A stretch of DNA of 64,000 nucleotides from Linum tenue (lineage: Eukaryota > Streptophyta > Magnoliopsida > Malpighiales > Linaceae). The DNA lies in assembly GCA_946122785.1 (NCBI GenBank), contig CAMGYJ010000004.1, positions 24,936,188 through 25,000,187 on the forward strand. Reading direction: 5' to 3'. Below are positions 14,733-58,215 of this stretch, piece by piece. Every line of letters begins with the position of its first letter. Within the stretch, counting starts at the first letter, position 1. Under the pieces are notes generated by a model that worked only from the letters and a program-made list of their open reading frames with translations, had not been told where the DNA came from and ran no database searches. The translations under genes were made by a program, and so were the position numbers.

Positions 14733-17022
14733 ATGATTGGTAGTTTGCATATAGGGAATTCTTTGGAGGATTTAAGCGCTAGCATAAATGTCATGCCATA
14801 TAAACTATTTAAAAAGCTAGGCCTAGGTGAACCCATTGATACTAGGATGAGCATTCAACTTGTTGATAGATCCATTGTGCATCCTAGGGGTATTGCAAAG
14901 GACTTGATAGTCGCAGTAGGGCCATTCTCATATCTTGTTGATTTTGTCATTTTGGACATAAATGAGGATGTGGATGTGCCATTAATATTGGGTAGACCTT
15001 TTCTCGCAACCGCCAAGGTGCTCATTGATGTGAATGATGGGAAATTGATTTTGCGAGCTGGGGGTGAACAAATCACCTTCTCTGTTTATGATAATATGAA
15101 ACACCCCCATCTCCATGATGATCTAGACTACTGTGATGTTGTTGTTGATTTTGAGACCGCACTCGCCATCACGAGTGTGGGTACTGACGATTTCCTCGAG
15201 CGTTGTCTTTTGCTAGGGGAACAGGCATCACAGGATGTGCAGCTGGAGGAGCAGCTCACGGAGCTAGACGAGGCCGCGATCGAGGGGCGAGAGATACCAT
15301 TCAAGCCGATCCCTATCTCCCCCCGGATCGCTACATCATTGGAGGAGCCGCCAGAGCTGGAGCTTAAGCCCCTCCCCTCTCACCTGGAGTATGCATTTCT
15401 CCGGGAGGGGAATAAGCTCCCGGTCATTATCAGCTTGGATCTGACACCCGAGCAGAAGAGCAGGCTGGTGGCTCTGCTGCAGAAGTATGCCCGGGCCATG
15501 GCTTGGAAGATCACAGATATCAGAGGCATTAGCCCATCCTTCTGCTCCCACAAAATTCTGATGGAGGATGATGTTAAGGCAGTCAAGCAGCCACAGCGGA
15601 GATTGTCCCCCAACTTGGAGGCAGTGGTCCGGGCAGAGATTGTGAAGCTCATGGATGCAGGGATCATCTTTGCTATATCTGATAGCAAGTGGGTCAGCCC
15701 CACTCAGGTGGTCCCGAAGAAAGGCAGGATGACTGTGGTCCCGAATGAGAAGAAAGAGTTGATCCCCATGCGGACCGTGACCGGCTGGAGAGTTTGCATC
15801 GATTACCGGCGCCTGAACGATGCCACCAGGAAAGATAATTTTCCCCGACCTTTCATTGATCAGATGCTGGAGAGGTTGGCTGGCCATGAGTTCTATTTCT
15901 TCCTGGATGGCATGTTTGGTTATTTCTAGATTCCTATCGCACCGGAGGATCAGGCGAAGACCACATTCACTTGCTCCTTCGGTACCTTTGCTTACCGGAG
16001 GATTCCATTCGGGCTGTGTAATGCACCGGCGACATTCCAGAGATGCATGCTGGCGATCTTCAACCGCCTGGTTGGAGAGAGCATGGAAGTCTTCATGGAT
16101 GACTTCTCGGTTTATGGAGACTCCTTCACTCATTGTCTCCATAACCTGGAACTCGTTCTGAAGAGGTGCGAGGAGACTAATCTGGCACTCAGCTGGGAGA
16201 AGTGCCATTTTATGGTCCGTGAGGGGATTGTGCTCGGGCACAAGATCTCCAAGCAGGGGATTGAGGTGGATCGCACGAAAATTGAGACGATCAGTAAGCT
16301 ACCTCCTCCCATTTCTGTGAAGGGGATTCACAGCTTTCTGGGTCATGCAGGCTTCTACCGACGCTTCATTAAAGATTTCTCGAAGATTGCCCTGCCTCTG
16401 ACCAAGCTGCTGGAGAAGGATGCACCATTCCAGTTCACTCCTAAGTGCACATCTGCATTCGAGACACTGAATGAGAAACTTACCCATGCACCTATCATGG
16501 TGACTCCTAACTGGTCTCTTCCTTTTGAGCTGATGTGCGATGCGAGTGACTATGCGGTCGGGGCCGTTCTGGGTCAGAGACGCGGGAAGCACTTCCAGCC
16601 CATCTATTACGCGTCGAAGACCTTAAACAACGCATAAGAGAATTACACCACCACTAAGAAGGAGCTCCTTGCTGTGGTGTATGCATTTGATAAGTTCCGA
16701 CCATATCTGGTGCTCTCCCATGTGGTGGTCTACATAGATCACTCGGCAATTCGCTATCTGATGAGCAAGGCAGATGCAAAGCCTAGGCTCATCCGCTGGA
16801 ACCTGCTTTTGCAGGAATTCGATATAGAGATCCGAGACAAGAAGGGAGCCGAGAATGTTGCTGCAGATCACCTTTCACGGTTGGAAGCCCCTCCGGTGGA
16901 CAACTTCGTGGAAGAGATCGATGACTACTTCCCTGGTGAGCGATTGCTGGCGATGACATTGGTGGACAGCGTGGCCCTTGGTATTCTGACTTTGCCAATT
17001 ATCTGGTGGGTGGGGAGGCAAC
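14733..17022 (+). pseudogene. Ath1 pol: protease, reverse transcriptase and RNase H; integrase deleted
   Basis: One frame covers three domains. The aspartic protease (14760-15080) has DLSASINVMPYKLFKKLGL (usual DLGAS changed to DLSAS) and [19 protein letters not shown]. The RT (about 15450-16240) has WRVCIDYRRLNDATRK and the catalytic box FMDDFSVYG. The RNase H (about 16500-16880) has MCDASDYAVGAVLGQ and TDHSA-like IDHSAIRYL. TAG at 15927-15929 replaces the codon before IPIAPEDQ, and TAA at 16635-16637 replaces the codon before ENYTT; both fit C-to-T change of CAG or CAA. A shift near 16975 precedes WYSDFANYLVGG, the start of the integrase linker. Sequence then jumps to the post-pol motif GGGGAGGCAACC (17024), so the whole integrase is missing. 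Confidence 0.9.
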
Positions 17023-20302: not shown

Positions 20303-20962
20303 CTATACTTGAGGTGATCTGAAAAAGGATTTCTGTCCTTGCTTTGATTTCAGAATCTGAGTTGATAGGACATGTGATCGGTCTTCTGGTGGTCTGCTAT
20401 CACAAGAGGAGGAATTTTTCCTTTCTCGACCTCCTCTTTCAAAGTCATCAAATGCATCGTGATTATGATCAACTTGAAAGACATTAAAAATTTCCTCCTC
20501 CTTACCTACTCGGAATGTCAGCTTGCCTCTCCCAACATCGATGAGTGCATCACCAGTGGCTAGAAAAGGTCTACCAAGAATGAGAGGCACTCCCTGATCT
20601 TCTTCCATCTCCAGAATTACAAAATCTTTTGGGAGAATAAACTTTCCCACCTTCACCAATACATTCTCCACCACTCCTTTTGGAATTTTTACTGATCGAT
20701 CAGCCAATTGGAGAGTGATCCGAGTAGGCTTAAGAACATCTCCCAATCCCAATTTCTTGTAGACTGAGTATGGCATTATATTTATTCCTGCTCCAAGATC
20801 ACAAAGTGATTTATCGAACTCTCTACCTCCAACGACACATGGAATGGTGAAGCTTCCTGGATCATCCCTCTTTTCTGGTAATTTATTCTGAATCACAGCA
20901 CTACATTCAGAAGTAAGGGTTACCTTCTCTAGATCAGCCCATTTACGCTTCTTTGTCAGCAA
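20303..20962 (-). CDS. Ath2 aspartic protease region
   Basis: Pepsin-like retroviral protease that would mature the gag polyprotein. A lead-in SAVIQNKLPEKRDDPGSFTI precedes the active site DLGAGINIMPYSVYKKLGL, and [19 protein letters not shown] completes the fold. The frame is open for 219 codons and ends shortly after the domain, where pol is lost. The linker to gag is frameshifted near 20965. Confidence 0.88.
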   Translation of the reverse strand: MLTKKRKWADLEKVTLTSECSAVIQNKLPEKRDDPGSFTIPCVVGGREFDKSLCDLGAGINIMPYSVYKKLGLGDVLKPTRITLQLADRSVKIPKGVVENVLVKVGKFILPKDFVILEMEEDQGVPLILGRPFLATGDALIDVGRGKLTFRVGKEEEIFNVFQVDHNHDAFDDFERGGRERKNSSSCDSRPPEDRSHVLSTQILKSKQGQKSFFRSPQV

Positions 20963-20967
20963 CTCCT

Positions 20968-22826
20968 TTAAAAATTTAGCATATGTAGCATCTGTTCAAG
21001 TGCCTCTGCCAACGGTATGTTGATATGAAGTTGCTTGAAGATATTCACAAATTTCTTGAAGTTTGGGTCTTGCAAGGGCTTCATTAACCTTTGAGGGAAT
21101 GGTGCGGGTGGGTCATAAGGTTTTAGCTCCTCCCTCTTCTCATTTTCCCCTGCTGGTTTTGCACGGGCAGCATGCTTTTGCACATGCAAACTGCTTTCAT
21201 TTTGCATGTGCAAGGCTGATTCCTCATTTTCTGCACAAGACCCTTCTCCCGGTGCTTCCTCTTCTGCCTCTGGTGCCTTTTCGAGCTGCTAGGGTCTTCC
21301 AAGGCCTTGCCACTCCTCAATGTCACTGCCACAACTTTGGCATCTTTTGGATTCCTCTCGGTATTAGCAAGTAATGTCCCAGGAATCCTGCCTTGCATAT
21401 CCGCCAATGTTTGAGCCATTTGTCCCATCTGCCTCTCCATAGCTAGCATAGAAGATTGTAAATTATTGTTGATGGCTAGCTGTTGAGTGACAAATTGATC
21501 CAGCCCCTTCAGATTATTGTCGGTTTTCTGCATGTGAGCCAGAAGCAATTCTTCAAGTTGTAGTTTCTTCTCTTGTTGAGATTGTTGTTGCTGCAGGCCT
21601 GGAGGTGGAATGTTGCGAGCACCAGCTGGGTTGTTGTTTTCCCTGGTGAAGTTGGGATGCTTCCTCCATTGCGGGTTGTAGGTATTTGAATACATACCTC
21701 CCTGGCCTTGACTTCGCTGATTGTTGATATAGTGCACATCTTCCAACTGATCAGCTACTAGTGGACATAGATCCCTATGATGAGCACCTTCACATAATTC
21801 GCAATAAGCAACCTCCTCCTGTCTACCAAAATCCAACTTAGCATCAATCTTTGCTTCTAGACTTGCATCTATCTCATGCAAGCCTCCTCTTCTTCGAATG
21901 CTGGTCTCACTACCCCATTCAGTATCTTCAGAGCATATCTTCTCCACCAGTTCATATGCTTCTGGTGCTTCCATTCTTGTGAAACCATTTCGGGAAGCAT
22001 TATTTAGAGCATCTCGGAATTGTCTTCTGATTCCGTTGAAGAAGATGGAGATCACGTTCCAATCTTCAAGACCGTGGCTCGGACATCTCATTAAAAGCTC
22101 CTTATAGCGCTCCCATGCCTCGGTCAAACTTTCGTCTTCAGCTTGTTTAAAAGTGACAATTTCCTCTTGCCTCTTCATTGCCTTGGCAGGAGGAAAGTAC
22201 TTATCCAAAAAGGTCTTCTCAAGCTGACCCCATGTTGTGATGGAACGGGGTGTTAAGTTCTGGAACCAGTGTGATGCATTCCCTAGCAGAGAAAAGGAGA
22301 ACATCCGAAGGCGGATGGCATCATCAGACACAGCCGGGCTCTTCATTGTGTCACAAATGCTTGCAAACCGGCAAAGATGTTCATGAGGATCCTCGGTGCT
22401 GGCCCCTGAGAAGGTGTACCCATTAGTGATCATATTGATGAAGGCTGGGGTAATCTCCATGTTTGCATCCCCAGCCGGAATGTCAACACATGAAGCTCGG
22501 GCTCCAGTCCTTCTATTCAAGCGAGCCCTGATCGAACGATCTTGTTCTGCCATGATGATAGGCTCAACCTCACGAGGTGGTGGTGTCGGTGGTGTAGAGA
22601 TGACAGGTGGTGAAGCCTGCCCTCTCGGTTGGTTCTGGGTTATGGAAGGCCTAGGAGTTGTGGTTGGCTGCTTCCCTAACTTGACCTGCTTCCTGTTCTG
22701 TCGGCGGGTCCTCTCGATCTCGGGATCTAGTGGCAGTAAATTGCCAGTCGTCCTCCTTGGCATGCACGAGGAGGATAAACTTGAAAAATTCACCTGCACA
22801 CTAACACCCAGATCAAAATAGTTCAC
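20968..22826 (-). CDS. Ath2 gag polyprotein, frameshifted near its end
   Basis: The long frame 21123-22826 encodes a basic, proline-rich N-terminus, then the capsid (ASHWFQNLTPRSITTWGQLE, FLDKYFPPAKAMKRQEEI, ESLTEAWERYKELLMRCP). A single zinc knuckle follows (CELCEGAHHRDLC, C-X2-C-X4-H-X4-C) and then a glutamine-rich coiled stretch. After residue ~530 a frameshift moves the expected continuation (KPYDPPAPFPQRLMKPLQD) to 20968-21213. The capsid is largely intact and could still make protein. An ATG internal to the frame (22550, MAEQDRSIRARLNRR) may be the true start. Confidence 0.88.
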
Positions 22827-43830: not shown

Positions 43831-43833
43831 CAT

Positions 43834-44299
43834 TGCATATGCAAGATCCCCATAGAGTTCATTTAACTCATAACCTTAATCTTGGTATCATATGAGCTGC
43901 TTGATCCATGTGAGATATATTTTTCCCATGTGTCGCGGAATTTACCTGATCTACTAGGCAAGGAGAACTTACGAATTTCTCCTTCGATGTATCACCAGCC
44001 TAATCGATTGATGAATGCTTGTGCAGGATGGCTGTGTCTATTCTCACCCAACGCGAAGTCAGATTTTGCATATGCAAGCTCCCCATAGAGTTCATTTGAC
44101 TCACAACCTTAATCTTGGTAGCATATGAGTTGTTTGATTAATGTGAGATCTATTTTACCCATGTGTCGTGGCATTTACCTGATCTACTAGGCAAAAAGAA
44201 CTCACGATTTTCTCCTTTGATGTATCACCAGCCTCATCGATTGATGAATGCTTGTGCAGGATGGCTGTGTCTATTCTCACCCAACGCGAAGTCAGATTT
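43834..44299. repeat. Direct tandem duplication, 233-bp period
   Basis: Two adjacent copies, 43834-44066 and 44067-44299, each start tgcatatgcaag and end in agtcagatttt. They differ by roughly 20 substitutions, so the duplication is not recent. Each contains a short exon-like stretch (gcag then gatggctgtgtctattctca). Confidence 0.85.
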
Positions 44300-44952
44300 T
44301 GAAGTACACATCTCAAAGGGATGTGTGACTTTGCCTCACAATCAATTGATAAGAGACAACACAATAAAATCTAACATAGAAAGAAGATGAATCAAATCTC
44401 ATATATATACAAAAAAAAGAGTTACATGTCAAATAACCTCTAGGGTTTGCAAAGCTACGGAACTAAGGAACTAGCCGATTGAGAGGACGAGTTTATGGGG
44501 GAATATCAATCAAAATGGATCAGTGTTGTCAAAATCGAACAAAACATCGATCCAGATTAGTAAGAGTTTCAAGGTTTGTTGAAGAACCGGTAGTTAAACG
44601 GTATTAAAAACCGATCAAAACCCGGAGATAGCCTACTTGTTGGAGTTAATGGTGCAAAGTGCAAAACAATTATTCTTTACTTTGTTTTTATAATATCTCC
44701 AGTCTAGAAGGAATTACAAAATTCAAAACTGAAAAGGTAGAGGGTAGGAGACTGCTAGTGCTAGATTATGACAGAGAAATGGGAATGGAAATTGTAATTG
44801 TAATTTTATTTCCTTTTCATGTATGTACGTCTTACCTTTTTGGTTTCCTTGTTATTTGTTTTGAATTTTTAATTGAAAAAACATAAAAGGTAGCCATTCA
44901 TTGTTTTTTGGAAGGTTTGATGTGATCCAGCGCACAAATTTTCGTTATTTGA
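44300..44952. other. No gene recognised; target of Ath4
   Basis: Ordinary AT-rich sequence. Phrases such as gtgttgtcaaaatcgaac and aaccggtagttaaacggt resemble a plant hAT MITE end, but no matching end was found. Confidence 0.35.
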
Positions 44953-45479
44953 TGATTCGGACCCAAATGTACACATTTTACCTCTCATTTATTATTCCTT
45001 TTACTCCAAAATGTTTCCTTGTGATTGTTTTGATACTTTTCTGGTCCTAGCACGTGTGGAAGGGTCGAGGTCAAATTTTGGGGTAATTGGAGGTTAAAAA
45101 GCACAAAAACCGAAGAGAAGTCCGAAGTCGTAACAGTGAAGTGTAGGCGTCCAGGAAGCAGCCGTAGTTCACGGTCAAACAAGGGAGTTCACAGTCTCCT
45201 AAGACCGTGAACTGGAGCCACAAACCGTGAACATCGAGCAGTCCAGCGAGGTTTCAGAGGTTACTAACGCAAAGGGAGTTCACGGTCGCTAAGACCGTGA
45301 ACCCAGGAGAGTGAAGCGGTAGGTTTTGGAGACGACTGAGTTCACGGGCGCGTTTAGGTGTTCACGGCCATAGACTGGCCAACGTGTCCGTGAACCGCTC
45401 ACTTTCAGGTAAATACGATGACAACAACGGGGAGAGAGAAAAGGAGAGCTGGTATCTGGAGAGAAATTCAATTCCCTCT
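44953..45479 (+). repeat. Ath4 5' LTR, first part
   Basis: Contains the TTCACGG palindrome cluster (45166-45400). Interrupted at CCTCT (45475-45479) by Chr1. Confidence 0.88.
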
Positions 45480-46476
45480 TGATATGATCGCAATTCATCA
45501 ACATTTCAAGCTATTATGGCCTTTGACGCAATCATTCTCAACCATCTTGAAATGCCCGGGATTTTGGTTAAGTGTTTCTGACGATTCGGGGTGGCTACTT
45601 TGGAGGGTTAGTCCTTCCAAATGGGACGATGAAAATGCGAAAGGAAGCTGTGGAATTCAAGTCAAGGTGTTCCTATACAAGTTCAATGACTTATCTAGGA
45701 CAGAACAAGTTTCTAAGCCTAGTAACTACATCCCTCAAGATGCTATGCTGAATCTGGAAAATGACTTGGTTTGCTGGGATTTGACCAAGGCAGGAGACTG
45801 TTTCGGGTTACCACTTTGGAGCTCGTGCTCGAGCCAATGGAGTCACCTTCGGAGGGAGCTGATGGAGGGGATGAAGAGCCTGAAACATGTTAAAGAGAGG
45901 ACTGGAGTTGGATGATCACGACGGAATGTGGAAGTCCTCGCACGAAAGCCTCCAAGGTGCTGTGGACTCCGTTTGGATCACTTGAGTGGGAAGTTGTTTG
46001 CTTGTACGGAAAGAAAGATTGTTAGCCGAGTTTCATTTACCTTGTTTAACTTGGATTTCCTTCTTTGTTTGTTCTTTGGGTTTATGTTAATTGTCCTTAT
46101 TAGAGTAGTAGTGGGAGTAGGATTCAGTAGTCTATTTAAAGTGCCAAAGTTCCACGTTTGTAAGCAGAGAAGTTTTAATTAAAAACCCAAGTTCATAGAG
46201 TTTGTTCACTCGTGAATTGTCCTTGCTTGCCGGAGATCAATATTGCAATCAAGCGAGCTCAGTATCGAATGAGTAATCCCCTCATTCGTGGTCGAGTTTC
46301 GAACTGAAATTCGAGCAAGCCTCTTCCCCGATTCGTGTGTTGAAGTTGCTTGACGAATACCACCATACAAACACCCTGCTGCTACGTTGGGAACTTTGGT
46401 TAAAGACCACCCAATTTTAGGTTTCACGGAAGCAGCGCTACTCAGTAGTTGAGCAAAGCCGGTTTTTCTCATAACA
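45480..46476 (+). repeat. Chr1 5' LTR
   Basis: TATA-like ctatttaaag lies at 46132-46141. The U3 part before it carries an open frame (45484-45915) that starts at the fifth base of the LTR. Confidence 0.92.
46132..46141 (+). promoter_or_regulatory. Chr1 LTR TATA box
   Basis: ctatttaaag, also at 49702-49711 in the 3' LTR. The solo relative has the same ten bases at 53705-53714 on the minus strand. It places the U3 ORF upstream of transcription start. Confidence 0.6.
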
Positions 46477-46478
46477 AG

Positions 46479-46491
46479 TGGCATCATCACC
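46479..46491 (+). other. Chr1 primer-binding site, non-standard
   Basis: TGGCATCATCACC in the position of the usual Met-i site TGGTATCAGAGCC, with four changes. Located two bases after the LTR. Confidence 0.55.
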
Positions 46492-46647
46492 TCGTTCAAC
46501 ACAGTGGACAAGACTAAGGAAATCGTCGCGGGAACGACGCATTGGACACGATCTAAGGGTCCTGTTTCAAGTGACCCTGCTGTTTGAAGAAGCAAAACAG
46601 AGGCAGTTGCAGAGTCGGACGAAGAGGTACGAATTGACAAGCACGAA

Positions 46648-47286
46648 ATGGCTGGACAGCAAATTAATATGACGGAGCTACTGCAAACCCTCAGAGCCGA
46701 GATGGGTATCCTTTTCCAAGCACAGGTTGACAGGTTAGACCAAAAATTAGAGCAGCAAGCTCGAAGACTTGATGCTCTGACTCTGCCGGAACCGCGACAA
46801 GATAGGGAGCAGGATCACGTCGGCGGAGATAACGCCCTCATCACCAGAATTCAAAACCTGGAGCAGCAACTTGTTGGAACCGAGCCCGATCGAGGAAACC
46901 AAAGGAGGCCACCGGACGAGGAGCAGGGCACCATCTCCGAATTGCGGGGTATTAAGCTCGCAATTCCGCCCTTTCAGGGAACGAACAGCGCGTCGACGTA
47001 CTTGGATTGGGAGCGCAAGATTTCGTTGTTCTTCCCATGCGGAGAATATACCGAACCTCAGAAAGTGACCCTCGCCACTTATGAGTTCTCTGATTACGCC
47101 GCGCAATGGTGGGAAAGAGTTCAAACCCGACGTCGGCAGAATCTCCAACCAGAGGTCACTACTTGGACGGAGCTGCGAGGTCTTATGCGTGAACGATTTG
47201 TACCTGGGTATTATCAACGAGAATTGCACGAGGCGTTGCAAGGATTAAAGCAAGGCTCGCGTTCTGTCGAAGACTACTTCCGTTAG
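46648..47286 (+). CDS. Chr1 gag, N-terminal part up to an amber codon
   Basis: 212 codons of capsid-type gag: a Gln-rich coiled start (FQAQVDRLDQKLEQQARRLD), then KLAIPPFQGTNSASTYLDWE, SDYAAQWWERVQ and LRGLMRERFVPGYYQRELHE. It ends at TAG 47284-47286, after which the same frame continues with the rest of gag. Relatives have a sense codon here, so this is a point mutation or a readthrough site. The ATG at 46648 is the first in frame and fits gag starts of related elements. Confidence 0.85.
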   Translation: MAGQQINMTELLQTLRAEMGILFQAQVDRLDQKLEQQARRLDALTLPEPRQDREQDHVGGDNALITRIQNLEQQLVGTEPDRGNQRRPPDEEQGTISELRGIKLAIPPFQGTNSASTYLDWERKISLFFPCGEYTEPQKVTLATYEFSDYAAQWWERVQTRRRQNLQPEVTTWTELRGLMRERFVPGYYQRELHEALQGLKQGSRSVEDYFR

Positions 47287-48300
47287 CTCGAGCTGCTCAT
47301 GATGCGTGCTGACATCAGGGAGGATCGCGAGGCAACCATTGCTCGCTTTCTCCACGGATTAAACCGAGAAATTCGCCAAGAAGTTGAACTGAGGACGTTT
47401 GTGGACTTAGAGGAAGTCGTCCATATGGCAATCAAGGTAGAAAAGCACTTCAAGTCTATGTCGGGAAGACGATTCCCACCTGCCAACAAGTCGAATGCGG
47501 ATGCTGCTGCAAATTCTGGGTTAACACCACCACGAGTTGAGGCTGAGAAACCAACCTTCTCCCGCAATCAGCAACTAAAGCCCGAAGGATCGAGTGCGAA
47601 CATACAGTGCTTCAAGTGTTTCGGGCGTGGATATAAAGATAATCAATGCCCCAATAAGAAAGCGCTGGTGCTTCGTGACGGTGAGTATTATTCAGAAGAA
47701 GAAGAGGAGAAGCCTAGGGGAGCTTTAATTGACTCCGAAGGCGACGAAATAGATGAGGAGATCCTGATCACCGACCCACCACCAGGCAAGCTCTTCGGTG
47801 TAAACAGGAGGGCCCTTACAACGGCAGCCTATGCTGATAACGATCAACGAGAGAACTTGTTCCAATCTCGCTGCGTCGTTAATGGCCGCGTATTGTCTGT
47901 AATCATCGACGGAGGTAGTTGTGCAAACGTCGTTAGCCTGGATATCGTTAAAAAGCTTGGATTGACAACAAGTAAACACCTGGAACCGTATAATATGCAC
48001 TGGCTCACTGATTCTGGAGCGATCAAAGTGAATAAACAAGCCCGCGTTCCATTCGAAATTGGCGAGTACAGAGATGAATTGGTGTTCGACGTCGCTCCTA
48101 TGCAGGCAACACACCTTCTCTTAGGGAGGCTGTGGCAATTTGACCGCGGAACATGTCATTTCGGTGGCACTAATTGCTACCGGCTAAAACAGGGCAACCG
48201 GAGCTTCCTACTAAAGCCATTATCGCCGGCAGACGGTCGCGCCGATCAACGCCAGATGGAAGCCAATCGAGGACAGGGGAGGGACGAGTCCAACTGCACT
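47287..48300 (+). CDS. Chr1 gag C-terminus and aspartic protease
   Basis: Same frame as gag. LELLMMRADIREDREATIAR and FLHGLNREIRQEVEL complete the capsid. The zinc knuckle reads CFKCFGRGYKDNQC, with Tyr where the zinc-binding His belongs. The protease has the active site IIDGGSCANVVS and HLLLGRLWQFDR, the usual chromovirus pattern. After about 48230 the expected RT lead-in breaks down and the unknown region begins. Gag would package RNA and the protease would mature it. Confidence 0.88.
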
Positions 48301-49485
48301 AGCTTGATGGTGCGAAGAATCATGTTGACGGCGTACAAACGGGAACGAGTTCCACGCCGTCGACGATCCAAGCTGCTCTGCCACTATCCACCGAAGCAGA
48401 GCAGGAGAGAGGGCGAATTGGGTAGCCCTCTAGGGGTCAACACGACGCAACCCGCGGAGACCGTTGCACTCTATACCACCCAAGGAAGCTCTCCTCTTGG
48501 CTCATTGGAGTCGGTTCTCACTGTGTTGCAGGATTGCAATCGAGTCCCAACTCCTCTGCAAAAGCTCGAACATGAGCAAAAGTCTGGTGAATGGGATGGC
48601 ACAGCTGCGAAGGAATTAACGCAAACTAGTGTTGCTGAGTCATTGGAGAAGGGAGTTGGCAGCTGTAGGAAGATTCCCTTGATGCCGAGGTTCCCTGATA
48701 AGGAAATGCCCAAAACGAATTCGCACTTCCTGGGTTCTTCCATTTTGAACCTAGCGGCTGGCGGGAAAAGGGCGGTCGTCGAATGGGCAACGACGGAGCC
48801 AAATCGGATCCTGGGACTGGAGCATAATTTCAATTGGTGGCATGGTGAAGCTCTGGGAAGCAGTGGATTGGAATGGCGATTCCCAAATCAAAAAGCCCCA
48901 ATTCCAATGGTGGTGAACTCTATTGTAAGTTTCCAGAACTGCGAGGTTAGACACCCTGTTTTTTATCCGATTTGGGATCAGTTCTGCGAAAGGTTTGGGC
49001 AACGGAAGGCCAAGGCTTTGAGGGCAAAGCCTTTTTATGGGAAGGGGCCTGATATGATCGCAGTTCATCAACATTTCAAGCTATTATGGCCTTTGACGCA
49101 ATCATTCTCCACCATCTTGAAATGCCCGGGATTTTGGTTAAGTGTTTCTGACGATTCGGGGTGGCTACTTTGGAGGGTTAGTCCTTCCAAATGGGACGAT
49201 GAAAATGCGAAAGGAAGCTGTGGAATTCAAGTCAAGGTGTTCCTATACAAGTTCAATGACTTATCTAGGACAGAACAATTTTCTAAGCCTAGTAACTACA
49301 TCCCTCAAGATGCTATGCTGAATCTGGAAAATGACTTGGTTTGCTGGGATTTGACCAAGGCAGGAGACTGTTTCGGGTTACCACTTTGGAGCTCGTACTC
49401 GAGCCAATGGAGTCACCTTCGGAGGGAGCTGATGGAGGGGATGAAGAGCCTGAAACATGTTAAAGAGAGGACTGGAGTTGGATGA
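48301..49485 (+). CDS. Chr1 unrecognised ORF running through the polypurine tract into the 3' LTR
   Basis: Open and in frame with gag-protease for 394 codons. The first part (to 49049) is basic, then mixed, ending in a Trp/Phe-rich stretch (EVRHPVFYPIWDQFCERFGQ). It crosses the LTR start at 49050, and the last 143 codons (ATG 49054 to TGA 49485) lie in U3, with WLSVSDDSGWLLWRVSPSKW and KVFLYKFNDLS. No RT, RNase H or integrase motif is present and I know no family for it. The 5' LTR holds the same U3 frame (45484-45915), and a diverged solo LTR holds a clear homologue (54007-54288). It could be captured host sequence or an accessory gene. Where translation starts is unknown: it may be made only as a tail of the polyprotein. 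Confidence 0.65.
   Translation, partial: SLMVRRIMLTAYKRERVPRRRRSKLLCHYPPKQSRREGELGSPLGVNTTQPAETVALYTTQGSSPLGSLESVLTVLQDCNRVPTPLQKLEHEQKSGEWDGTAAKELTQTSVAESLEKGVGSCRKIPLMPRFPDKEMPKTNSHFLGSSILNLAAGGKRAVVEWATTEPNRILGLEHNFNWWHGEALGSSGLEWRFPNQKAPIPMVVNSIVSFQNCEVRHPVFYPIWDQFCERFGQRKAKALRAKPFYGKGPDMIAVHQHFKLLWPLTQSFSTILKCPGFWLSVSDDSGWLLWRVSPSKWDDENAKGSCGIQVKVFLYKFNDLSRTEQFSKPSNYIPQDAMLNLENDLVCWDLTKAGDCFGLPLWSSYSSQWSHLRRELMEGMKSLKHVKERTGVG
49031..49049 (+). other. Chr1 polypurine tract, inside the coding frame
   Basis: tttttatgggaaggggcc adjoins the 3' LTR start TGATATG and is read through by the unknown ORF. Confidence 0.75.
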
Positions 49486-50046
49486 TCACGACGGAATGTG
49501 GAAGTCCTCGCACGAAAGCCTCCAAGGTGCCGTGGACTCCGTTTGGATCACTTGAGTGGGAAGTTGTTTGCTTGTACGGAAAGAAAGATTGTTAGCCGAG
49601 TTTCATTTACCTTGTTTAACTTGGATTTCCTTCTTTGTTTGTTCTTTGGGTTTATGTTAATTGTCCTTATTAGAGTAGTAGTGGGAGTAGGATTCAGTAG
49701 TCTATTTAAAGTGCCAAAGTTCCACGTTTGTAAGCAGAGAAGTTTTAATTAAAAACCCAAGTTCATAGAGTTTGTTCACTCGTGAATTGTCCTTGCTTGC
49801 CGGAGATCAATATTGCAATAAAGCGAGCTCAGTATCGAATGAGGAATCCCCTCATTCGTGGTCGAGTTGCGAACTGAAATTCGAGCAAGCGTCTTCCCCG
49901 ATTCGTGTGTTGAAGTTGCTTGACGAATACCATCATACAAACACCCTGCTGCTACGTTGGGAACTTTGGTTAAAGACCACCCAATTTTAGGTTTCACGGA
50001 AGCAGCACTACTATGTAGTTGAGCAAAGCCGGTTTTTCTCATAACA
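49050..50046 (+). repeat. Chr1 3' LTR
   Basis: 997 bp, the same length as the 5' LTR. Four substitutions fall within the U3 frame, three of which change an amino acid. Confidence 0.92.
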
Positions 50047-50051
50047 CCTCT

Positions 50052-50084
50052 CTAGGGTTTGCCCAAAAACACCAAAGGAGAGTT

Positions 50085-50162
<78 letters not shown>

Positions 50163-51134
50163 AGAGTGATCATGGAGCATCATTGGAGGCTTGGGGGGAT
50201 CTTGAAGACAAGGATTCAAGCCTAGAAGAATAAAAAGAAGATCTTGAGCTCAAATTTGTAATCTCTCTCTTCTCTCTCTAGAAACTCACTCTTTTCTCTT
50301 GGTTGTTGTAGATCCCTAACTAATACTTTGTAATTACTTGTTTAGATTGAATGATTTTGTATGGGTTTGCATCAATTTGTGTATTAGAGGTGTTTTCATG
50401 GTGATTGTGCTTAGTTGTGCTTTCCAAATCTTGTGTGCTTGCCTAACCTAGATTAGAGAAAAACCACACCTTTTTAGGTAGGCTTAAAAAGCTTGATTTT
50501 CCTAGGTACTTTGTGCCCCTACTATCTGGGTTAGAGATAAGCATCCCCCTTGACTCAAGTTTGCATCTAGGTTGGTCGTGATAAAGCTGCTCAAACTCCG
50601 GTTTGAGGGAGAGACCTAGGAAACCCTTAGAGACTGAGTGAGAGGATCGATTCCATGACAAATCGATATCTAGTGAATCCATCCCGTGACAAATGGATCA
50701 CTAGTTGCTCCTCCCAGCGGTTCCTCTAGAAATCGTGAGTGGATCAGTCCCATGAGAAATCGATCGCTAGTGAATTGATTCCATGACAAATCGATCGCTA
50801 GTTGCTCACCCTCGCGGTTCACAACCACCTACACCACACGACTACATTCAATCCGGCGAGTCATGGTAGCTAGTTAGGGGGAAGCAACTCTTGGGTGAAG
50901 CTCCCTTAGTTAGAATTTTCCTTTATTTACTTTTCTTTTCTTGTTTAGTTTGTAGTTCCATTAGTTCTAAACCCAAAATTTGCTTGCTAGATAACAACCT
51001 AAATGATTGAAGTAGGGGTACATGGATCGGCCTGGATTGATAATTAAAACTTACTTGCCCTACGCTGCTCCCCTCTAGAGTTTAAAAACTTGGGCTCTAG
51101 AGGGGATTTCTAGTGTGTTGTTTTGTGTGAGTCA
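50052..51134 (+). repeat. Ath4 5' LTR, second part, with microsatellites
   Basis: Resumes at ctagggtttg after the CCTCT copy. A (TG)n run followed by (AG)n at 50090-50160 makes this LTR longer than its partner. Short repeats of aaatcgatcgctagt/aaatcgatatctagtg occur at 50640-50810. It ends GTGTGAGTCA. Confidence 0.88.
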
Positions 51135-51140
51135 AGTTTT

Positions 51141-51157
51141 TGGCACCGTTGAGGGGA
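51141..51157 (+). other. Ath4 primer-binding site (altered tRNA-Asp)
   Basis: TGGCACCGTTGAGGGGA differs from the standard Asp site TGGCGCCGTTGCCGGGG at a few positions. Confidence 0.65.
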
Positions 51158-51337
51158 ACCGCGGTCCATTTTATTGCAAAGGTCGCTTAGTGTTACTCTA
51201 GCATTTCTATCTTGCCTTTTTGTTCGTGTTTTATGTTTTGTGTTGTGTTTTGTTTACCCACTCTTCGTCTCGATGGGTGGTTTGTGTTTGTTTGTTTGAT
51301 TTTTTTTTTGTGTTTTTGTTTGTGTAGGTTATGAATC

Positions 51338-52291
51338 ATGGATCCCAATAGCTTCTGCAATAGGTGGGGGTATCCACAACCACCCGAATGGGGGTACCCC
51401 GGAGCTTCATGGAGTGAACAAGAAGGGGGAAGCCAAGGATCCGGGTTCTATTACCAACCCCCCTTCCAAGAAGAACAACCATAACATTGGGGGTATGAAG
51501 AGGCATCCCCATATCAAGAAGATTTCCATCCACAACCCGAGGAGAAATCCAAGTTGGAGTTGGCCATGGAAGCCTTCATGGGAGAATCATCAAGACCATT
51601 TGCCACTCCACAACCGGAGCTAAAGAGAAACTAGGAGCTCATGGTGGAGAAAATTTCCCGGGGTACCGATGAGGGATGCTCCAATTTGGACCTTCCCATC
51701 GCCGGTCCTATCGACTCAACCTATCTTCGGGAGGCGGAGGAGCTCAGTCAACGCACGAAGAGGCAAAGAGAGCTTGTTGAGCAAGCATGTGCACAACTTG
51801 CTCACAATCGTCTCCCGTCATTTGAAGAAGAGAAAGAGGAGGTCGAAGAGGCAAGCCATGAGACCTTTGGAAGAACGAGCTCCGACATGGATTTCCAACC
51901 CCTCCCTCCTCCCGGTTTGGCACTAGAAGAGAAAGTGGCACGAGCTTGTGAAATCTATCGCCTCTCATTATTGGAGGAGGAGAAGGAGGTTGAAGGAGCG
52001 ATCAATGACAACTGTGTGGAGCAAGAAGAAATCTCCCCGGAGAGCTCCCGTGGTGAGGATGAACAAAAAGGTTGCATTGATGACTCCAGTCACTTTCCCC
52101 TTCCCGTAAGAAACTTTGAAGACCAAGACACGAGTGTGGAGGAGCAAGAGACTTCCTTCGATGACCTTGCATGGCATCTTGCCGTCAAATTCGTGCTTGG
52201 AGGCATGAAGAAGAAGGAGAAAGAAGAGGAGGAAGAAAGCATTGAAGAGGGGAAAGATTTTAAGTGTTCCCAAGGGGAGGAAATTGAATAA
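51338..52291 (+). pseudogene. Ath4 acidic ORF in gag position, two in-frame stops
   Basis: Starts MDPNSFCNRWGYPQPPEWGY, a Trp/Tyr/Pro/Gln-rich segment. TAA (51482-51484) and TAG (51632-51634) interrupt one continuous frame. The open part from 51641 is 216 residues, very Glu/Lys-rich and probably coiled (LEEKVARACEIYRLSLLEEE, KKKEKEEEEESIEEG). There is no capsid, zinc knuckle, protease or RT motif. Its position suggests a shortened gag-related or accessory protein of a non-autonomous Athila group. Function unknown. Confidence 0.6.
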
Positions 52292-52339
52292 GAAGGGAGG
52301 TTGAGTAAGAAGTAGAAGGAGCAAGTGAGGTCCAAGATG

Positions 52340-52698
52340 AAAACGAGGTCGTGGTGGATGAAGCTTCTACAAGTTACAAGTGCGAACAAAGCTTTCCACC
52401 CGACCTCGATGCGCTTTTGGAGAAGGACCCATTTACGGCTCTTTGCCAAGACAAGGCCAAACCATCGGCGATCCCTCTTGGTGGATGCGATGGTGGTAAA
52501 TCGATGATGCATTACATGGTGTGGGGCAAAGAGAAGAAGGAAGAAGAAAAGAAGAAGAGGTCTCGTGGGTGGAGCCCCAAAGCCAATCAAGTTCAAGAGC
52601 CCTCAATCATGGACTCGTTCAATGCTCGTGACTTGAGACATCACCTCACTGACAAGAACCTCAACTTCAAGGAGGTTCTTGGACGGACCAAAACTTGA
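52340..52698 (+). CDS. Ath4 second short ORF (continuation in another frame)
   Basis: 115 codons from ATG 52351: SYKCEQSFPPDLDALLEKDP, GGKSMMHYMVWGKEKKEEEK, then a basic tail ending NFKEVLGRTKT. It probably continues the acidic protein after a frameshift between 52290 and 52340. It stops about 40 bases before the post-pol landmark gcgcttggcgggaggcaacc (52731-52750). No known domain. Confidence 0.5.
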
Positions 52699-53413
52699 AG
52701 AGCAACCGTCCAGCTCACGACGTTAATAAAGCGCTTGGCGGGAGGCAACCCAACCATCAACGGTTTGCATCTCTTTTCCTTTCAATCAGACGACCAATGG
52801 ATATATTTTGGTGGTATGTTGCCGTCTCCTTGCTATTCCGGATCTCACTCTCCCTCCGCTCCCGAACACCAACATTCCCCACTATCCGGTAATATCGATC
52901 TACTTCCCTATTTTACGCCATTGAGGGCAATGTCGAGCTTAAGTGTGTGTGTGTGTGTTGGGGGGGGGGGGGCTAGTCCATTATGCATGTGTGTAAATGT
53001 TTGGTGTGATTTTGAATGCTTGGAGCCTTGATGTATGCCCAAATTTGAAAAAATTTGAGGGCTCCAAGCAATGCTTGTTCAAAGGCCGGTTGGATGATGA
53101 ATCTCGTGCTTATTTGGCATCATTCTTGAATTGTTGCATATAGTCGAGTGCATCCTATTAAGATGACTGAGAGTGCATTAGGATTGTGCGAGGACTTAGT
53201 TCTCATGTGTGCTTAAATGAATGGGATGTCTTGACTTGGTTACTCTTCGATTACAATCGCCATGCATCGAGTTTGTGAATGTGGAATAGACGATTGGGCG
53301 GCTAGTTAGCCTGTGAGTTTTGAGCCAATCGTTTTCTTCTGGTGTGATAGTTCCCTCTCACCATGGTGTGTATCATCACAGTTGTCATTAGCGAGTAGGA
53401 TGGAGGCATAGGA
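52699..53413 (+). other. Ath4 3' UTR, first part
   Basis: Contains the post-pol landmark (52731) and ccattgagggcaatgtc (52918), plus a TG microsatellite and a poly-G run (52944-52973). Non-coding. Confidence 0.75.
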
Positions 53414-54292
53414 TAATACGAGCTCAGTTGTGCTTGTTAGGAATCAATACGTGAAACTCGATTCTCCTTCAATGAAACTTGAATTTCAACAACTTAAAAC
53501 GAAAATAAAACGGACCAAAGGTGCAACTTCACACTTGGGAAGAGGCTCGATTGGTTTAAGTCGAAGCTCGGCCACGATTGATTTGGTTTCAATCGATACG
53601 AAGCAAACTCGCTGCTGGGACGCAACCAACACACAAGTATTTGGTGACAATGGTCACAACTTTTCATTCAATCAAAAACTACCTTTTTACACGAGGTTCT
53701 CAATCTTTAAATAGACAAACACAACCTAATTTGAACTCTAAACAAACAAGGAAATCGAATTCTAATTCTAACATAACAAGGAAACAGAATCCAAGCTTAA
53801 AAAGGTAATAAACTTTAGTTACTTCCTGCCCAAGCTGCTGCCTTCCTGCACAAGTAACAATATCAGCCTTCATAGCATCTTTAGAGCTCTCGATCGGGGC
53901 CTTCTAGGGAGGTTCGATCCAAACCAGCTTCAGTCGTTTGCTCTCCTGCACTTGTAGAATAAGTTCCAACTCCCTCTTTCCTTCGTTGATTCCCCAGTTG
54001 CATTTACTAAGCCTCCAGTTTCACCATAGCAACTTGGAACTCCTGAAAACGACTCCAAATCAATCGATATCGCTTGGACAATGCTTCAAACGTATAGAGG
54101 AACATTTGAAGTTCAATTATACACCATTTTCCCGTGATTCCATCCACCAGTATGTAAGAAATGAACCCGTAAAGTAGGCACCATGAAATGACCCAAACAC
54201 TTAGCCAAATCCTTCCTTTTTTCCTTCCAACGTTGATTGATCTTTTGGCGAGTAATTGGGTCGTAATTAGGGCATATTTGAGGATCATATCA
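53414..54292 (-). mobile_element. Solo LTR related to Chr1, inserted in the Ath4 3' UTR
   Basis: On the minus strand it starts TGATATGATCC (compare TGATATGATCG in Chr1) and ends CTCGTATTA, where CA has become TA. The target duplication TAGGA is exact (53409-53413, 54293-54297). The TATA element ctatttaaag is shared with Chr1. Overall sequence is strongly diverged from the Chr1 LTR, so it is a different family of the same lineage. Confidence 0.82.
54007..54288 (-). CDS. U3 ORF of the solo LTR, homologue of the Chr1 LTR ORF
   Basis: The ATG lies at the fifth base of the LTR, exactly as in Chr1. The frame is 93 codons against 143. Shared positions include WLSV, a following C/W-LL pair, D...G..C.I and FLY.F..LS, in the same order and spacing as in Chr1 (residues ~30-75). 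The product is hydrophobic in the middle (VWVISWCLLYGFISYILV). Conservation of frame and start between diverged LTRs suggests that the ORF is an ancestral part of U3. Function unknown. Confidence 0.6.
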   Translation of the reverse strand: MILKYALITTQLLAKRSINVGRKKGRIWLSVWVISWCLLYGFISYILVDGITGKWCIIELQMFLYTFEALSKRYRLIWSRFQEFQVAMVKLEA

Positions 54293-54297
54293 TAGGA

Positions 54298-55549
54298 TTA
54301 GTCCATGCCCAAATGTTGATTGTCCCGAAATGTGTTATCCCTTAGTCAACCCCTTTGAGCCTTGTGCCTTCGAGGGTTGTTCTTATGTTAGGAGCTTCTT
54401 ACTTGTGAGCTTTATGGTGTTGATAGAAAGAACCCAATCCTTTCTTCGTGTCTTTACATGAGTCTTCATTGTATCCCGGAGCTCCACTCTTGAGTTCCAT
54501 TGAGGTTCTACATAGGAGGATTATGTGTGGTTCTTGCTAGGAATGAAAAATGAACTGTAGTGTTGGAGTGAGTTCTAAAAAAGTGAGCATTGGTCATTAA
54601 ATGTATAGGTGGCAAGTGTTTTACTCTCTAGTAACCCCCACAAAAAGAAAAAAAAAACGAGAAAAGAAAAGAAAAAGGAATCGAAAAAAGAGGTAATAAA
54701 ACGGGGTAGATAAAGTAGAGGGCGCCACAAAAAAATCAAAGTGTATGCTCTAGGAGGGGTTTCTTGGCACTCAAACCATTGAGACCCCCACATTGTTTTA
54801 GAACTCCTTCACTACCAAATCGAAAGGTGATAGCAAGAGAAAACCGAGGAAGAGCGCTTAAATGTAGTTCCTGGTGGGTGATCGTTTGGAAGGGAAAAGT
54901 AAGACTTTTGGCCTATGCTAATGGAATTTGTTTGTAGAGAAGGTTCTTAGTCGAAATGATAGAACCTTCGGGTTTAGGTTGAAGATGTAGAACCTCATGT
55001 TGTGTTTGACACCACCCAAAAGGCCTTTTTTCCCATGTCCAAGGCAATTGCTAGTCGTCTGAACCCGTGTCTAAGACCTCCGGACATGCTAGTGATGACA
55101 AATATCCCATGAACTCTAGCGTTTAGAGGTTTCCGCCGTGGTGGTGAGATGGTAGGGATGAGGGGTGACGATTGTGCACATCTTTTGAACTAAAAAGGTC
55201 CCGACCCCACTGGTCGAGAGTTAGCGATTCATTCTTGTTCTTACATGTTCATATCTATCCTAGTGAGAACCTATGTTGCCCTGTTGTCTGTTCCGTTGAC
55301 TTGATTTCTATGCATTGTCGGTTGTGAATGATTAGTAGCCCCGTTGAAACTTGCATTGATTGTGGATAGAATGAGAACTTTTCATTTGCCCATTGATTGT
55401 GGATTTGTTTGAGACGGTTCGAGTGTCGATGCCCAAATAGTCATTTGAGATTCACAGCCTTGTGCCTTTTGAAATGTCCCCTAGCTATCTTTGTAGGTTG
55501 AAATATTACCTAGGTTGAAAATGGTTTGTATGGGGACAAGCAAACGTCT
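54298..55549 (+). other. Ath4 3' UTR, second part
   Basis: Non-coding, with an A/G-rich tract (54640-54700). Aligns in order with the Mos1 3' UTR and with parts of the Ath1 3' UTR. Confidence 0.75.
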
Positions 55550-55561
55550 AAGTGTGGGGAG
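55550..55561 (+). other. Ath4 polypurine tract
   Basis: aagtgtggggag directly precedes the 3' LTR start. Confidence 0.85.
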
Positions 55562-56923
55562 TGATTCAGGCCCAAATGTACACATTTTACCCCTCATTTC
55601 TTATTCGTTTGGCTTAGTATTTCATCATTCCTCGACATATTTCACGATAGGTTGTGCTTCTTTTTATACGTTTCAGGTCCTAGCACGTGTGGAAGAGTCT
55701 AGGTCGAATTTTGGGATAATTAGAGGTTAAAAAGCGCAAAAACCAAAGAAAAGTTTGAAGTCATAATAGTGAAGTGTAGGCATCCAGGAAGCAGCCGCAG
55801 TTCAAGGTCTCCTAAGACCTTGAACTGGAGCCACAAACCGTGAACATCGAGTAGTCCAGCGAGGTTTCAGAGGTTACTGACGCAAAGGTAGTTCACGGTC
55901 GCTAAGACCGTGAACTGGGGCCATTAACCGTGAACCCAGGAGAGTGAAGCGGTGTGTTTTTGAGACGATTGAGTTCACGGACGCGTTTAGGTACGCACGG
56001 TCGTGAACTGGCCAATGCGTCCGTGAACTGCTCCCTTTCGGGCAAATATGAAGACAGCAGCAGGGAGAGACAAAATGAGAACTGGTCTTTGGAGATAAAT
56101 TCAATTCCCTCTCTAGGGTTTGACCAAAAACATCAAAGGGGAGTTCTAGTGAGAGAGAGAGAGAGAGAGAGAGTGCTAGAGTTATCTTGGAGCATCATTG
56201 GAGGCTTGGGTGGATCTTGAAGACAAGGATTCAAGCCTAGAAGAAGAAGAAGATCTTGAGCTCAAATTTGTAATGCCTCTCTTCTCTCTCTAGAAACTCA
56301 CTCTTTTCTCTTGGGTGTTGTAGATCCCAGCTAATACTTTGTAATTACTTGTTTAGATTGAATGATTTTGTATGGGTTTGCATCAATTTGAGTATTACAG
56401 GTGTTTTACTGGTGATTATGCTTAGTTGTGCTTTCCAAATCTTGTGTGCTTGCCTAACCTAGATTAGGGAAAAACCACACCTTTTTAGGTAGGCTTGACA
56501 AACTTGGTTTTCCTGGGCAATTTGTGCCTACTATCTAGGTTAGAGATGAGCATCCCTCTTTACTCAAGTTTGCATCAAGGTTGGTCATGATTAAGCCGCT
56601 CAAACTCCGGTTTGAGGGAGATACCTAGGCAACCCCTAGAGACTGAGTGAGAGGATCGATTCCGTGACAATCGATCTCTAGTGAATCCATCCTGTGACAA
56701 ATGGATCACTAGTTGCTCCTCCTAGCGGTTCCCCTAGACGTCGTGAGTGGATCTATCACGTGACAAATCGATCGCTAGTGAATTGATTCCTTGACAAATC
56801 GATCACTTGTTGCCCACCCTCGCGGTTGATAATTAAAACTTACTTGCCCTATGCTGCACCCCTCTAGAGTTTAAAAACTTGGGCTCTAGAGGAGATTTCT
56901 TGTGTGGTGTTTTGTGCGAGTCA
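55562..56923 (+). repeat. Ath4 3' LTR
   Basis: 1362 bp. Palindromes at 55798-56030, including gttcacggtc/gaccgtgaac around 55891-55916 and a changed pair gttcaaggtct/agaccttgaac at 55800-55825. The cluster leads to caaatatgaag. Confidence 0.88.
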
Positions 56924-56928
56924 TTTGG

Positions 56929-58215
56929 CTTCCGGGACCGGATTAGTGGCCGGTTCGGGGTTTTCTCGGTCTGACCGCCTGGTCAGGACCAAGTTTAATA
57001 ACAATGAAATGGATCACCAAAAAGTCACCTAAATCGCTAGCAAGAACAGAGACTGGTTTGTCGCGTAGCTTCACCATTTGATTTCGGCTTCACTCTAAGT
57101 AGGGTGAGTCACTCTATCGGCAGAGTAATGACGCTCTAATACCTCCTATTATTAGCTACCAAACTTATATACCCTAGGCATTTGTTTACAGGCCTCTACA
57201 TCAGGTTTTTTGGGAGAAAAAGCACACTCTACGTGTTTTTTTAGTTCCTTCGGGTCTTTCTTGCTTGCCACCACATAGGCATATTATTGAGATTTTGGAC
57301 TTGTTCTAGATACCCTCCAAAATGGCGGCCGAGGTGCAGTTTAAAGTTATGGTTTAATGTTTTCCATACCATTTTCTGGGCTTGATCGAATCTCGGATTT
57401 TGACTCCCAACAACCAGTTCTTGATGTTTCCCTACTTGTATAAGGTGGTCCACTAGCATGCTATGACCCAAAAATATATGAAAATACTATTAAAAGTGCA
57501 TCAAAATAGTATCAGTAGTACTAAAACTATTAAAAGTTTAAAACACACGTTGGGTGATTATTAAACAAATGGAAGCTATTATGGCAATAAAGATGTGGAA
57601 ATCATGCAATTCTAGCCATAATAAATGATTTTTCAATAGTACTTTCTACGTAGTATCAACTCGTAATGACCATGCAAGAAATTGAAACTTAATTTGGGTG
57701 AAGTGGATCACCCGAAGAACTGTGGTTGACTATTCGTTATGTCGTTTATAGCAATTTGGTATGTAATTTGGCTTTCTTCAATACTTAAGAAGAGGTGAAA
57801 ATCTAGTTTAGATTCAAAGAACAACAGAGTACAATGATATGAGAATGCATGAATTGTTTCAGGAATTGTGATGAGATGGACTTATTTGAATGAATTCGAT
57901 TGAGAGAGAGAATTAATTTGCAATGCCTATGGGAAACTGATATGAATAATACATTTACCACCTTGGATCGTCACGCTTGTTAAGTCACTTTGTTGAGTTG
58001 TTGTAGTGCTGTTGTATCCAGTTAATTTGGTTAGTAGAAGAACTTTGTGGAACTCAAACCACACTCTAGTTTTGAACACGAGCTAGTTAGATGTGCTTGT
58101 GTAGTGCATCAAGGAGGCCCTAGGGAATAAATATATGACACCGGAGAGCTTAACATTATGGATTTTGCTTTTTGCATATGCTTTTAGCGAGTCAAATTTT
58201 TTAATTGAGCCTTAG
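56929..58215. other. No gene recognised
   Basis: Begins with CG-richer phrases (ccggattagtggccggttc) like a hAT MITE end, then becomes AT-rich. No coding or RNA signal that I can support. Confidence 0.4.

Follow-up and report, generated by a model that had tools for sequence, protein, structure and literature searches.

A gag-protease frame that crosses the polypurine tract and ends in U3 in a non-autonomous retrotransposon family of Linum tenue

In a large family of non-autonomous LTR retrotransposons of Linum tenue the frame encoding gag and protease runs on through the polypurine tract (PPT) and ends in U3 of the 3' LTR. This frame-into-LTR layout is a property of the whole family, and the element analysed here is a young, slightly damaged copy of it. 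The element lies in a stretch of 64,000 nucleotides, called the window in the following (assembly GCA_946122785.1, contig CAMGYJ010000004.1, positions 24,936,188 to 25,000,187 of the forward strand). The best explanation overall, to which we assign a probability of about 0.55, is a CRM-derived family that inherited the PPT-crossing frame, in which the translatability of U3 is selected in cis and the C-terminal motif RxGIG is an extra requirement. With this family one can measure, within a repeat that carries a promoter, how selection seemingly keeps a frame open and leaves its residues free.

Structure of the element and its open frame

The LTR element spans window positions 45480-50046 (4.57 kb). 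Comparison of its two LTRs, the 5' LTR at 45480-46476 (TGATATGATC...CTCATAACA) and the 3' LTR at 49050-50046, gave a length of 997 bp each and 13 differences between the two, corresponding to about 0.5 million years at the rate of 1.3e-8 used in PMC5818461. The ends of the insertion are fixed by a 5-bp target site duplication (TSD), CCTCT, at 45475-45479 and 50047-50051, and by an uninterrupted paralogous site at 56095-56125. The position of the primer binding site (PBS), 46479-46491, reads TGGCATCATCACC.

The element is nested inside another repeat (window 44900-57000), copies of which are also present at 55562-56923 and near 4800-5072 (other strand). A tandem duplication of 233 bp with 92% identity was seen at 43833-44298. 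ORFs of other elements are present elsewhere in the window, at 14733-15929 on the plus strand and at 20303-20962 and 21123-22826 on the minus strand. Matches to RT-bearing Ty3/gypsy proteins were seen at 15414-16880 and a protease-like match at 20513-20839, and a minus-strand ORF of 567 aa looks gag-like by eye.

Within the element a single frame can be followed from 46648 to 49485, on the plus strand like the LTRs and the other element features given here. The N-terminal part of gag (PF03732, E 2e-14) covers 46648-47286 and ends at the sole in-frame stop, a TAG at 47284-47286. The frame is continued at 47287-48300 by the gag C-terminus, a CCHC-like region and an aspartic protease (PF08284), whose Pfam E of 9e-4 falls slightly short of the curated cut-off. 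A tail of 394 residues follows. The internal part of this tail (48301-49049) has 250 codons including the PPT, the last codon being common to the LTR, and the PPT itself (49037-49049) is translated within YGKGP. The U3-coded part (49050-49485) has 144 codons and the stop, and ends in RTGVG, the family's RxGIG-type C-terminus. Position 48301 is an arbitrary point past the protease and no gene start; the stop-free run as a whole, 47287-49485, counts 732 codons and is the longest in the window. Pfam searches found no RT and no integrase in the ORFs of the element, and no match in the window's 394-aa tail.

The original prediction of a gag-protease frame without RT or integrase that crosses the PPT into the 3' LTR is borne out by this structure, with 144 codons in U3 instead of the 143 given before. 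The frame also ends well ahead of the TATA box of the LTR, as had been claimed, since its stop lies 217 nt upstream of the TATA-like TATTTAAAG at 49703-49711; an AATAAA is present at 49817-49822. For the substitutions between the two LTR copies within the frame we obtained the same count as before, four, of which three are non-synonymous (I/V, V/F and C/Y).

The open tail frame is not due to chance. In order-1 Markov sequences of the same composition 16.6 stops are expected over the 394 codons of the tail, as compared with none observed, and none of 20000 simulated sequences was stop-free. For the U3 part alone 7.7 stops are expected, and 7 of 20000 simulated sequences were free of them. The remaining two forward frames of 48301-49485 carry 19 and 22 stops. 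Codon usage trained on gag gave a z of 2.50 for the internal tail, 2.85 for protease as a control and 0.46 for the U3 part, and after training on gag plus protease the values were 1.49 for the internal tail and 0.50 for the U3 part.

The family and its autonomous relatives in the same genome

The tail was searched in the 692-Mb genome, where the best of 2351 candidates were scored, so that the counts are lower bounds. At least 105 tail matches were scored, comprising the two of the window itself, an LTR match with 59% identity and 102 matches of 30-40% identity. No stop is present in 63 of these 105 (counted by eye, among the best of 2351 candidates), and several matches sit within open frames of about 1000 codons. 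For the gag-protease stretch at least 119 other genome matches were scored, with 56-79% identity.

For a closer inspection 20 regions of about 9.5 kb were fetched, which are rows 3-22 of the tail list, in order and whatever their stops, together with 26 shorter regions chosen, for the most part among stop-free rows, from the lists of tail and gag-protease matches. Leaving out L032 and the LTR-only L009, 44 loci were examined for the tail. A tail match was found in 42 of them, and in 31 of these 42 it was stop-free and full length. The 31 accepted tails, for which a filter of 380-395 aa was set, are mostly 387-392 aa long, and most of them end in a motif like QRRGIG. The two loci without a tail match at the threshold are L053, a partial sequence that shows an internal tail by profile, and L049 (G000:C6:60177380-60179800), a short-tailed variant of the same gag-protease kind with an ORF of 777 aa, in which most of the internal tail is missing. 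In L049 the frame still crosses the PPT, and after about 36 codons in the LTR it stops 181 nt upstream of a TATA-like box. The same ORF length of 777 aa occurs in at least 8 rows among the scored gag-protease matches.

Two recognisable LTRs were present in 14 of the fetched copies, all from rows 3-22 of the tail list, and in 10 of these 14 the stop of the tail frame falls 415-432 nt past the start of the 3' LTR. Three of these ten (L014, L026 and L027) have stops further up in the tail, and the other four two-LTR copies are decayed or have truncated LTR alignments. The distance from the stop to a TATA-like box was measured in those non-autonomous relatives with enough sequence (n=23) and is 141-216 nt in 21 of them, the other two having no TATA-like match. 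The LTRs of the relatives mostly have the ends TGAT[AG]...ATCA, and those of the window copy TGATA...AACA. The PBS reads TGG[CT]ATCAGAGC in 6 of 14 relatives (L010-L012, L014, L020 and L026), and among the other forms in the remainder are TGGCATCATCGCC in L017 and L022 and TGG[CT]AATCAGAGC. Both the LTR end (AACA) and the PBS of the window copy depart from the commoner family form.

Some matches are evenly spaced: three lie 3700 bp apart at G000:C2:50254923-50263300 and three 5296 bp apart at G000:C4:29842432-29854691, which suggests tandem arrays, non-autonomous and autonomous, possibly sharing LTRs. A tandem array also surrounds the copy L018, where long direct repeats, offset by about 345 bp, lie on either side of the tail.

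The genome also harbours many autonomous relatives. At least 76 were scored, and frames of about 1570-1620 codons are common among them. From this set we read three 3' ends and two 5' ends, and the LTR start was confirmed from both LTRs in one copy. The autonomous frame passes the end of integrase (NAYKIDLPGEYGVSATFNV...), reaches LRANPFEEGGA or a variant at the PPT and enters the LTR at TGATGAGG. Three such frames run 63, 68 and 91 codons into U3, and the U3 ends contain the stretches GPITRSQAK, GPITRLQAK and GPVTRAKAR, which we call CR-like following the TRARAR/K motif given in PMC11302176. From stop to TATA the distances in the autonomous copies are 144, 163 and 262 nt. With a slash at the LTR start, the junctions read LRANPFEEGGA/DEDI, LRANPFQVEGD/DEDI and LRSNPFQEGGA/DEVI in autonomous elements, and for example LRTKLFEEGGP/DAT (L010), LRATLFQEGGP/DMI (L036) and LRAKPFYGKGP/DMI (window) in the non-autonomous family. 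The position of the junction, the frame and the PPT agree between the two groups; the likeness of the peptides is short, and the tail profile matches the autonomous ends at the junction only at E 0.01-0.05. Two autonomous copies (the fetched stretch of the second begins at the LTR start) share with the family the LTR start TGAT and the LTR end ATCA, and with part of it the PBS, which has the TGG[CT]ATCAGAGC form of the six relatives named above. Apart from the ends, the LTR interiors of partner and family share one 40-bp match only. The two groups probably represent the autonomous and the non-autonomous partner of one CRM-type pair within a single genome, the LTR-coded end having been replaced. 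Three autonomous-type matches at G000:C8:51050282, 51100714 and 51151115 have the same stop pattern and lie about 50.4 kb apart, reflecting either the repetition of a 50-kb segment or a feature of the assembly.

Origin of the tail and selection on its frame

A protein search with gag-protease gave 124 matches, which come from plants wherever the species is named among the 120 listed, and the best named match is Linum trigynum with 63% identity over 65% of the query. The tail gave no match at E<=1 or E<=10 in this type of search, which finds only proteins sharing exact 5-residue words (limited length). None of 29 tail members had a Pfam match at E<=1, and searches against known structures (PDB) with a single tail and with the family profile yielded E values of 1.3 and 0.72, which were taken as noise. 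Scans of viral and prokaryotic contigs found no tail relative, and a single-sequence AlphaFold model of 282 tail residues was uninformative (mean pLDDT 30).

Some likeness to pol is seen towards the ends of the internal tail. In the window the tail start KRERVPRRRRSKLL resembles the autonomous integrase end RKERFPQQRRSKLL (RKERFPxxRRSKLL). RxKLLC is also found in L029, L038 and L040, thus in 4 of 32 tails in all, most tails having RRRRP or other residues there, and 9 of the 32 align to the integrase end of the partner better than 95% of shuffles. No convincing resemblance to pol was seen in the tail's middle, a stretch of about 190 internal residues, or in the U3 part. A profile built from the three autonomous U3 parts gave no better E than 2.3 against the tails, and the CR motif (TRARA[KR] or a loose form of it) is absent from the window's tail. 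A decayed RT within the tail was considered and rejected, as no convincing local alignment was obtained. Both ends of the internal tail may be remnants of pol around a middle without known relatives. The tail is nevertheless more than a decayed pol fragment, the possibility that the original prediction had named against itself, since frame and length are the same in 31 of 42 loci and the middle lacks convincing pol likeness.

To measure selection, omega was determined from 13 pairs of stop-free copies, each copy being used once (8 pairs for gag-protease), and compared to 200 runs of a neutral simulation in which change merely avoids stops. The pairs are not all independent because L010-L012 are nearly identical, and L021 and L028 likewise. 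For gag-protease omega is 0.188, as compared with 0.848 in the neutral simulation, and lies below all 200 runs. The internal tail has an omega of 0.719 versus 0.866, with none of 200 simulations as low. For the U3 part omega is 0.860 versus 0.865 +- 0.051, with 100 of 200 simulations at or below this value. Purifying selection is strong on gag-protease and weak on the internal tail, and the U3 residues drift indistinguishably from neutral, a few conserved positions such as RxGIG excepted. The differences in U3 are spread evenly over codon positions 1, 2 and 3 (427/405/422), indicating that no other frame is under overall constraint there. The autonomous U3 ends, with three sequences, are too few and too saturated for a selection analysis.

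As the omega pairs were chosen stop-free, the absence of stops in them is conditioned, and the unconditioned evidence comes from the 105 scored matches and from an age test with the 14 two-LTR copies. In this test the tail is stop-free in all seven copies with an LTR divergence K<0.01 and in one of seven with K>0.02. The older count rises to two of seven when L027 is taken as open, its stops being located in sequence extrapolated beyond a frameshift. When the near-identical young copies L010-L012 are counted once, five of five young tails are stop-free versus one or two of the seven older ones. Two of the seven young copies, L023 and L028, carry a stop in gag-protease, and the window copy has one in gag too. 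About 16 stops are expected per tail copy after random change of 45% of the sites. The outcome that should have spoken against the gene, dN/dS near 1 together with random stops, is therefore found in its first half only: omega of the U3 part is at the neutral expectation, but the tail is free of stops in all seven young copies and in 63 of the 105 scored matches.

In 36 pairs the mean nucleotide identity is 0.572 for the coding part of U3, 0.570 for non-coding U3 and 0.563 for R-U5. The same pairs contain 39, 97 and 201 gaps in these three regions, of which 23, 32 and 49, respectively, have a length that is a multiple of three; the coding part thus has the fewest gaps and the highest share that preserve the frame. 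Downstream of the tail stop the LTR carries 2-13 stops per frame (12 copies). Selection thus seems to keep the U3 frame open, but not its residues.

At the amino acid level 28 of 400 alignment columns are invariant or at least 90% conserved (29 tails), and the conserved block DPIWxQF...ALRxKLF (DPIWxQF..F) adjoins the PPT on its internal side. The C-terminal glycine is kept in 27 of 27 tails and its codons vary over all four forms; the terminal residues R, G and G are each written with several codons. At tail residues 121, 154, 155, 200, 206, 212, 240 and 241 (window tail numbering, 27 sequences) one codon is used throughout where the commonest residue is kept, and for these residues of the internal tail a constraint at the nucleotide level, on an RNA or DNA motif, is possible.

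Within pairs dS is frequently mismatched between the regions by several fold. In L023-L034 it is 0.012 for the internal tail and 0.287 for U3, in L033-L043 it is 0.12, 0.55 and 0.20 for gag-protease, internal tail and U3, and L042/L052 are mismatched too. Such a pattern suggests that modules, LTRs included, have been exchanged between lineages. A conserved phase of PPT and LTR would allow joining any U3 frame to any internal frame.

Explanations of the open frame and comparison with known systems

The preferred explanation places the family in Ty3/gypsy and derives it from CRM-type chromoviruses, of the TR-GAG or Quinta kind. Gag and protease would have been kept and RT-RNaseH-integrase lost, the latter being presumably supplied by the autonomous CRM-like partner. 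The PPT-crossing frame was most likely inherited from this partner, whose integrase end crosses likewise and in the same frame, and the family would have replaced or enlarged the remainder, so that about 141 U3 codons are translated. Selection is inferred to act on translatability in cis. If ribosomes translate across PPT and U3 up to a point about 200 nt upstream of the TATA box, the 3' UTR of the genomic RNA would stay short, at about 350 nt to the AATAAA; a frame ending after protease would leave about 1.5 kb. The genomic RNA could thereby be shielded from nonsense-mediated decay (NMD). The conserved RxGIG C-terminus is probably an additional requirement at the protein level. Against this explanation stand the short junction likeness to the partner with its marginal profile match, the single 40-bp match between the LTR interiors of partner and family, the deviating LTR end and PBS of the window copy, and the stops in gag-protease of two young copies and in gag of the window copy.

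How the U3 frame is kept open can be read in two main ways. The ORF might be kept for the act of translation itself, in that ribosomes running through PPT and U3 protect the genomic RNA by a short 3' UTR and the removal of UPF1; we regard this reading as tentative. It fits that the stop lies about 140-260 nt before TATA whether about 36, 63-91 or about 141 U3 codons are used. According to a review, long 3' UTRs trigger NMD in plants and translation displaces UPF1, although the same review describes the transcriptome-wide support for NMD by long 3' UTRs as weak or mixed (PMC6173133). Against NMD alone, the weak constraint on the internal tail and the blocks DPIW and RxGIG point to a role of the protein. 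The tail may instead be a fast-evolving functional protein domain for which the frame is kept, for example one that took the place of the CR motif in targeting or in binding a partner, acting on Gag or on the integrase of the partner. The conserved columns, the purifying selection on the internal tail, the nearly constant tail length and the retention of RxGIG through synonymous codon changes all favour such a domain, and so does the CR motif coded at the corresponding place in autonomous CRM group A. This view is made doubtful by a U3 part that at the amino acid level is indistinguishable from neutral, by the variant L049 of the same gag-protease kind, which lost most of the tail, and by the lack of a CR motif, of Pfam matches in the 29 members (E<=1) and of a convincing PDB profile match. 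A variant of it, in which some part of the tail, such as the C-terminal motif, is functional and the stretch between is a free linker, fits the nearly constant length and the weak constraint on the internal tail. Our best guess places selection for translation, with the C-terminal motif as an added demand, somewhat ahead of selection for a protein function.

The remaining explanations have little probability. A fragment captured from a host gene would account for a tail middle without known origin and a U3 part unmatched by the autonomous profile, but the protein search within its scope of exact 5-residue words and limited length found nothing for the tail when gag-protease gave 124 matches, and Pfam found nothing in 29 members, which makes capture improbable. 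Lentiviral nef and MMTV sag are separate genes with coding sequence across PPT and U3, and they are likened to the window frame by position alone. An accessory gene of this kind acting on the host would match the placement and the rapid evolution of the tail, yet it is just as improbable, because the tail is fused in frame to protease, non-synonymous change is not above neutral, and junction place and frame are those of the integrase C-terminus of CRM-like elements. The original prediction of a nef-like gene has to be revised in this point, as the frame is continuous with protease and forms the C-terminus of a fused gag-protease polyprotein. Least probable is a chance ORF or a merely decayed pol fragment. 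The neutral drift of the U3 residues and the possible pol remnants at the tail start and on the PPT side agree with it, but the family data largely refute it: the tail has no stop in place of 16.6, 31 of 42 loci agree in frame and length, and the middle and the U3 part lack convincing pol likeness. Pol remnants may persist at the two ends, but they do not make the tail a mere decayed fragment.

If translation itself is selected, this would explain why ORFs of plant chromoviruses reach into U3 and end about equally far upstream of the TATA box, and would tie the anatomy of retrotransposons to RNA quality control.

The remark in the original prediction that no such gene is known from plant LTR retrotransposons does not hold. 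Gag-pol ORFs that extend into the 3' LTR have been published for CRM group A and some Reina chromoviruses (PMC3059260; PMC3605345), and autonomous examples are present in the same genome. The Reina-type elements Bingo1-4 and 7 share this extension, but they are autonomous and have their chromodomain upstream of the PPT (PMC3605345). The additional ORFs (aORFs) of plant LTR retrotransposons are also extra downstream coding sequence, in sense or antisense; they are placed between pol and the 3' LTR, and the description in PMC7264820 makes, as far as it was available, no mention of an overlap with or a location inside the LTR. TR-GAG elements, including the Coffea CRC derivatives and Arabidopsis AT5TE33540, are likewise LTR elements with GAG and without pol (PMC5818461; PMC8704663), and the window element agrees with this TR-GAG or Quinta type in having LTRs, PPT and gag and in lacking RT and integrase. 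In difference to TR-GAG, the window family has a protease and a 394-aa tail that is kept open across PPT and U3. RLG_Quinta, the non-autonomous partner of wheat RLG_Cereba with the PBS and LTR ends of its partner, is similarly a CRM derivative with one ORF for GAG and a domain of unknown function (PMC11302176). Its DUF1 is not stated to enter the LTR in the available text of that source, and the likeness to the window family is by description only. A frame in U3 that is stop-free yet neutral in its residues was not reported in the literature searched, which was mainly the text of open-access papers.

A close likeness exists to CRM group A (CRM, CRR, Cereba and Beetle). In both, the ORF runs over the PPT without a change of frame and has its stop within the 3' LTR. 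The LTR ends TGAT.../...ATCA of the relatives, the 5-bp TSD and a tRNA-Met-like PBS in part of the family resemble in part the TGATG/CATCA ends, 5-bp TSD and tRNA-Met PBS of group A, the window copy itself having TGATA...AACA and TGGCATCATCACC. The window element differs by the absence of RT, RNaseH, integrase and the CR motif, which CRM group A codes at the corresponding place in the LTR (PMC3059260). With autonomous CRM-like members of this genome it shares the place and frame of the junction; it has 144 U3 codons (about 141 in the family) as compared with their 63-91, and the family's U3 residues drift neutrally. Since the layout is published and autonomous elements with the same PPT frame and an integrase/CR-type end occur here, the frame is to be seen as the C-terminus of a non-autonomous CRM-type polyprotein, and lentiviral nef is not its nearest comparison.
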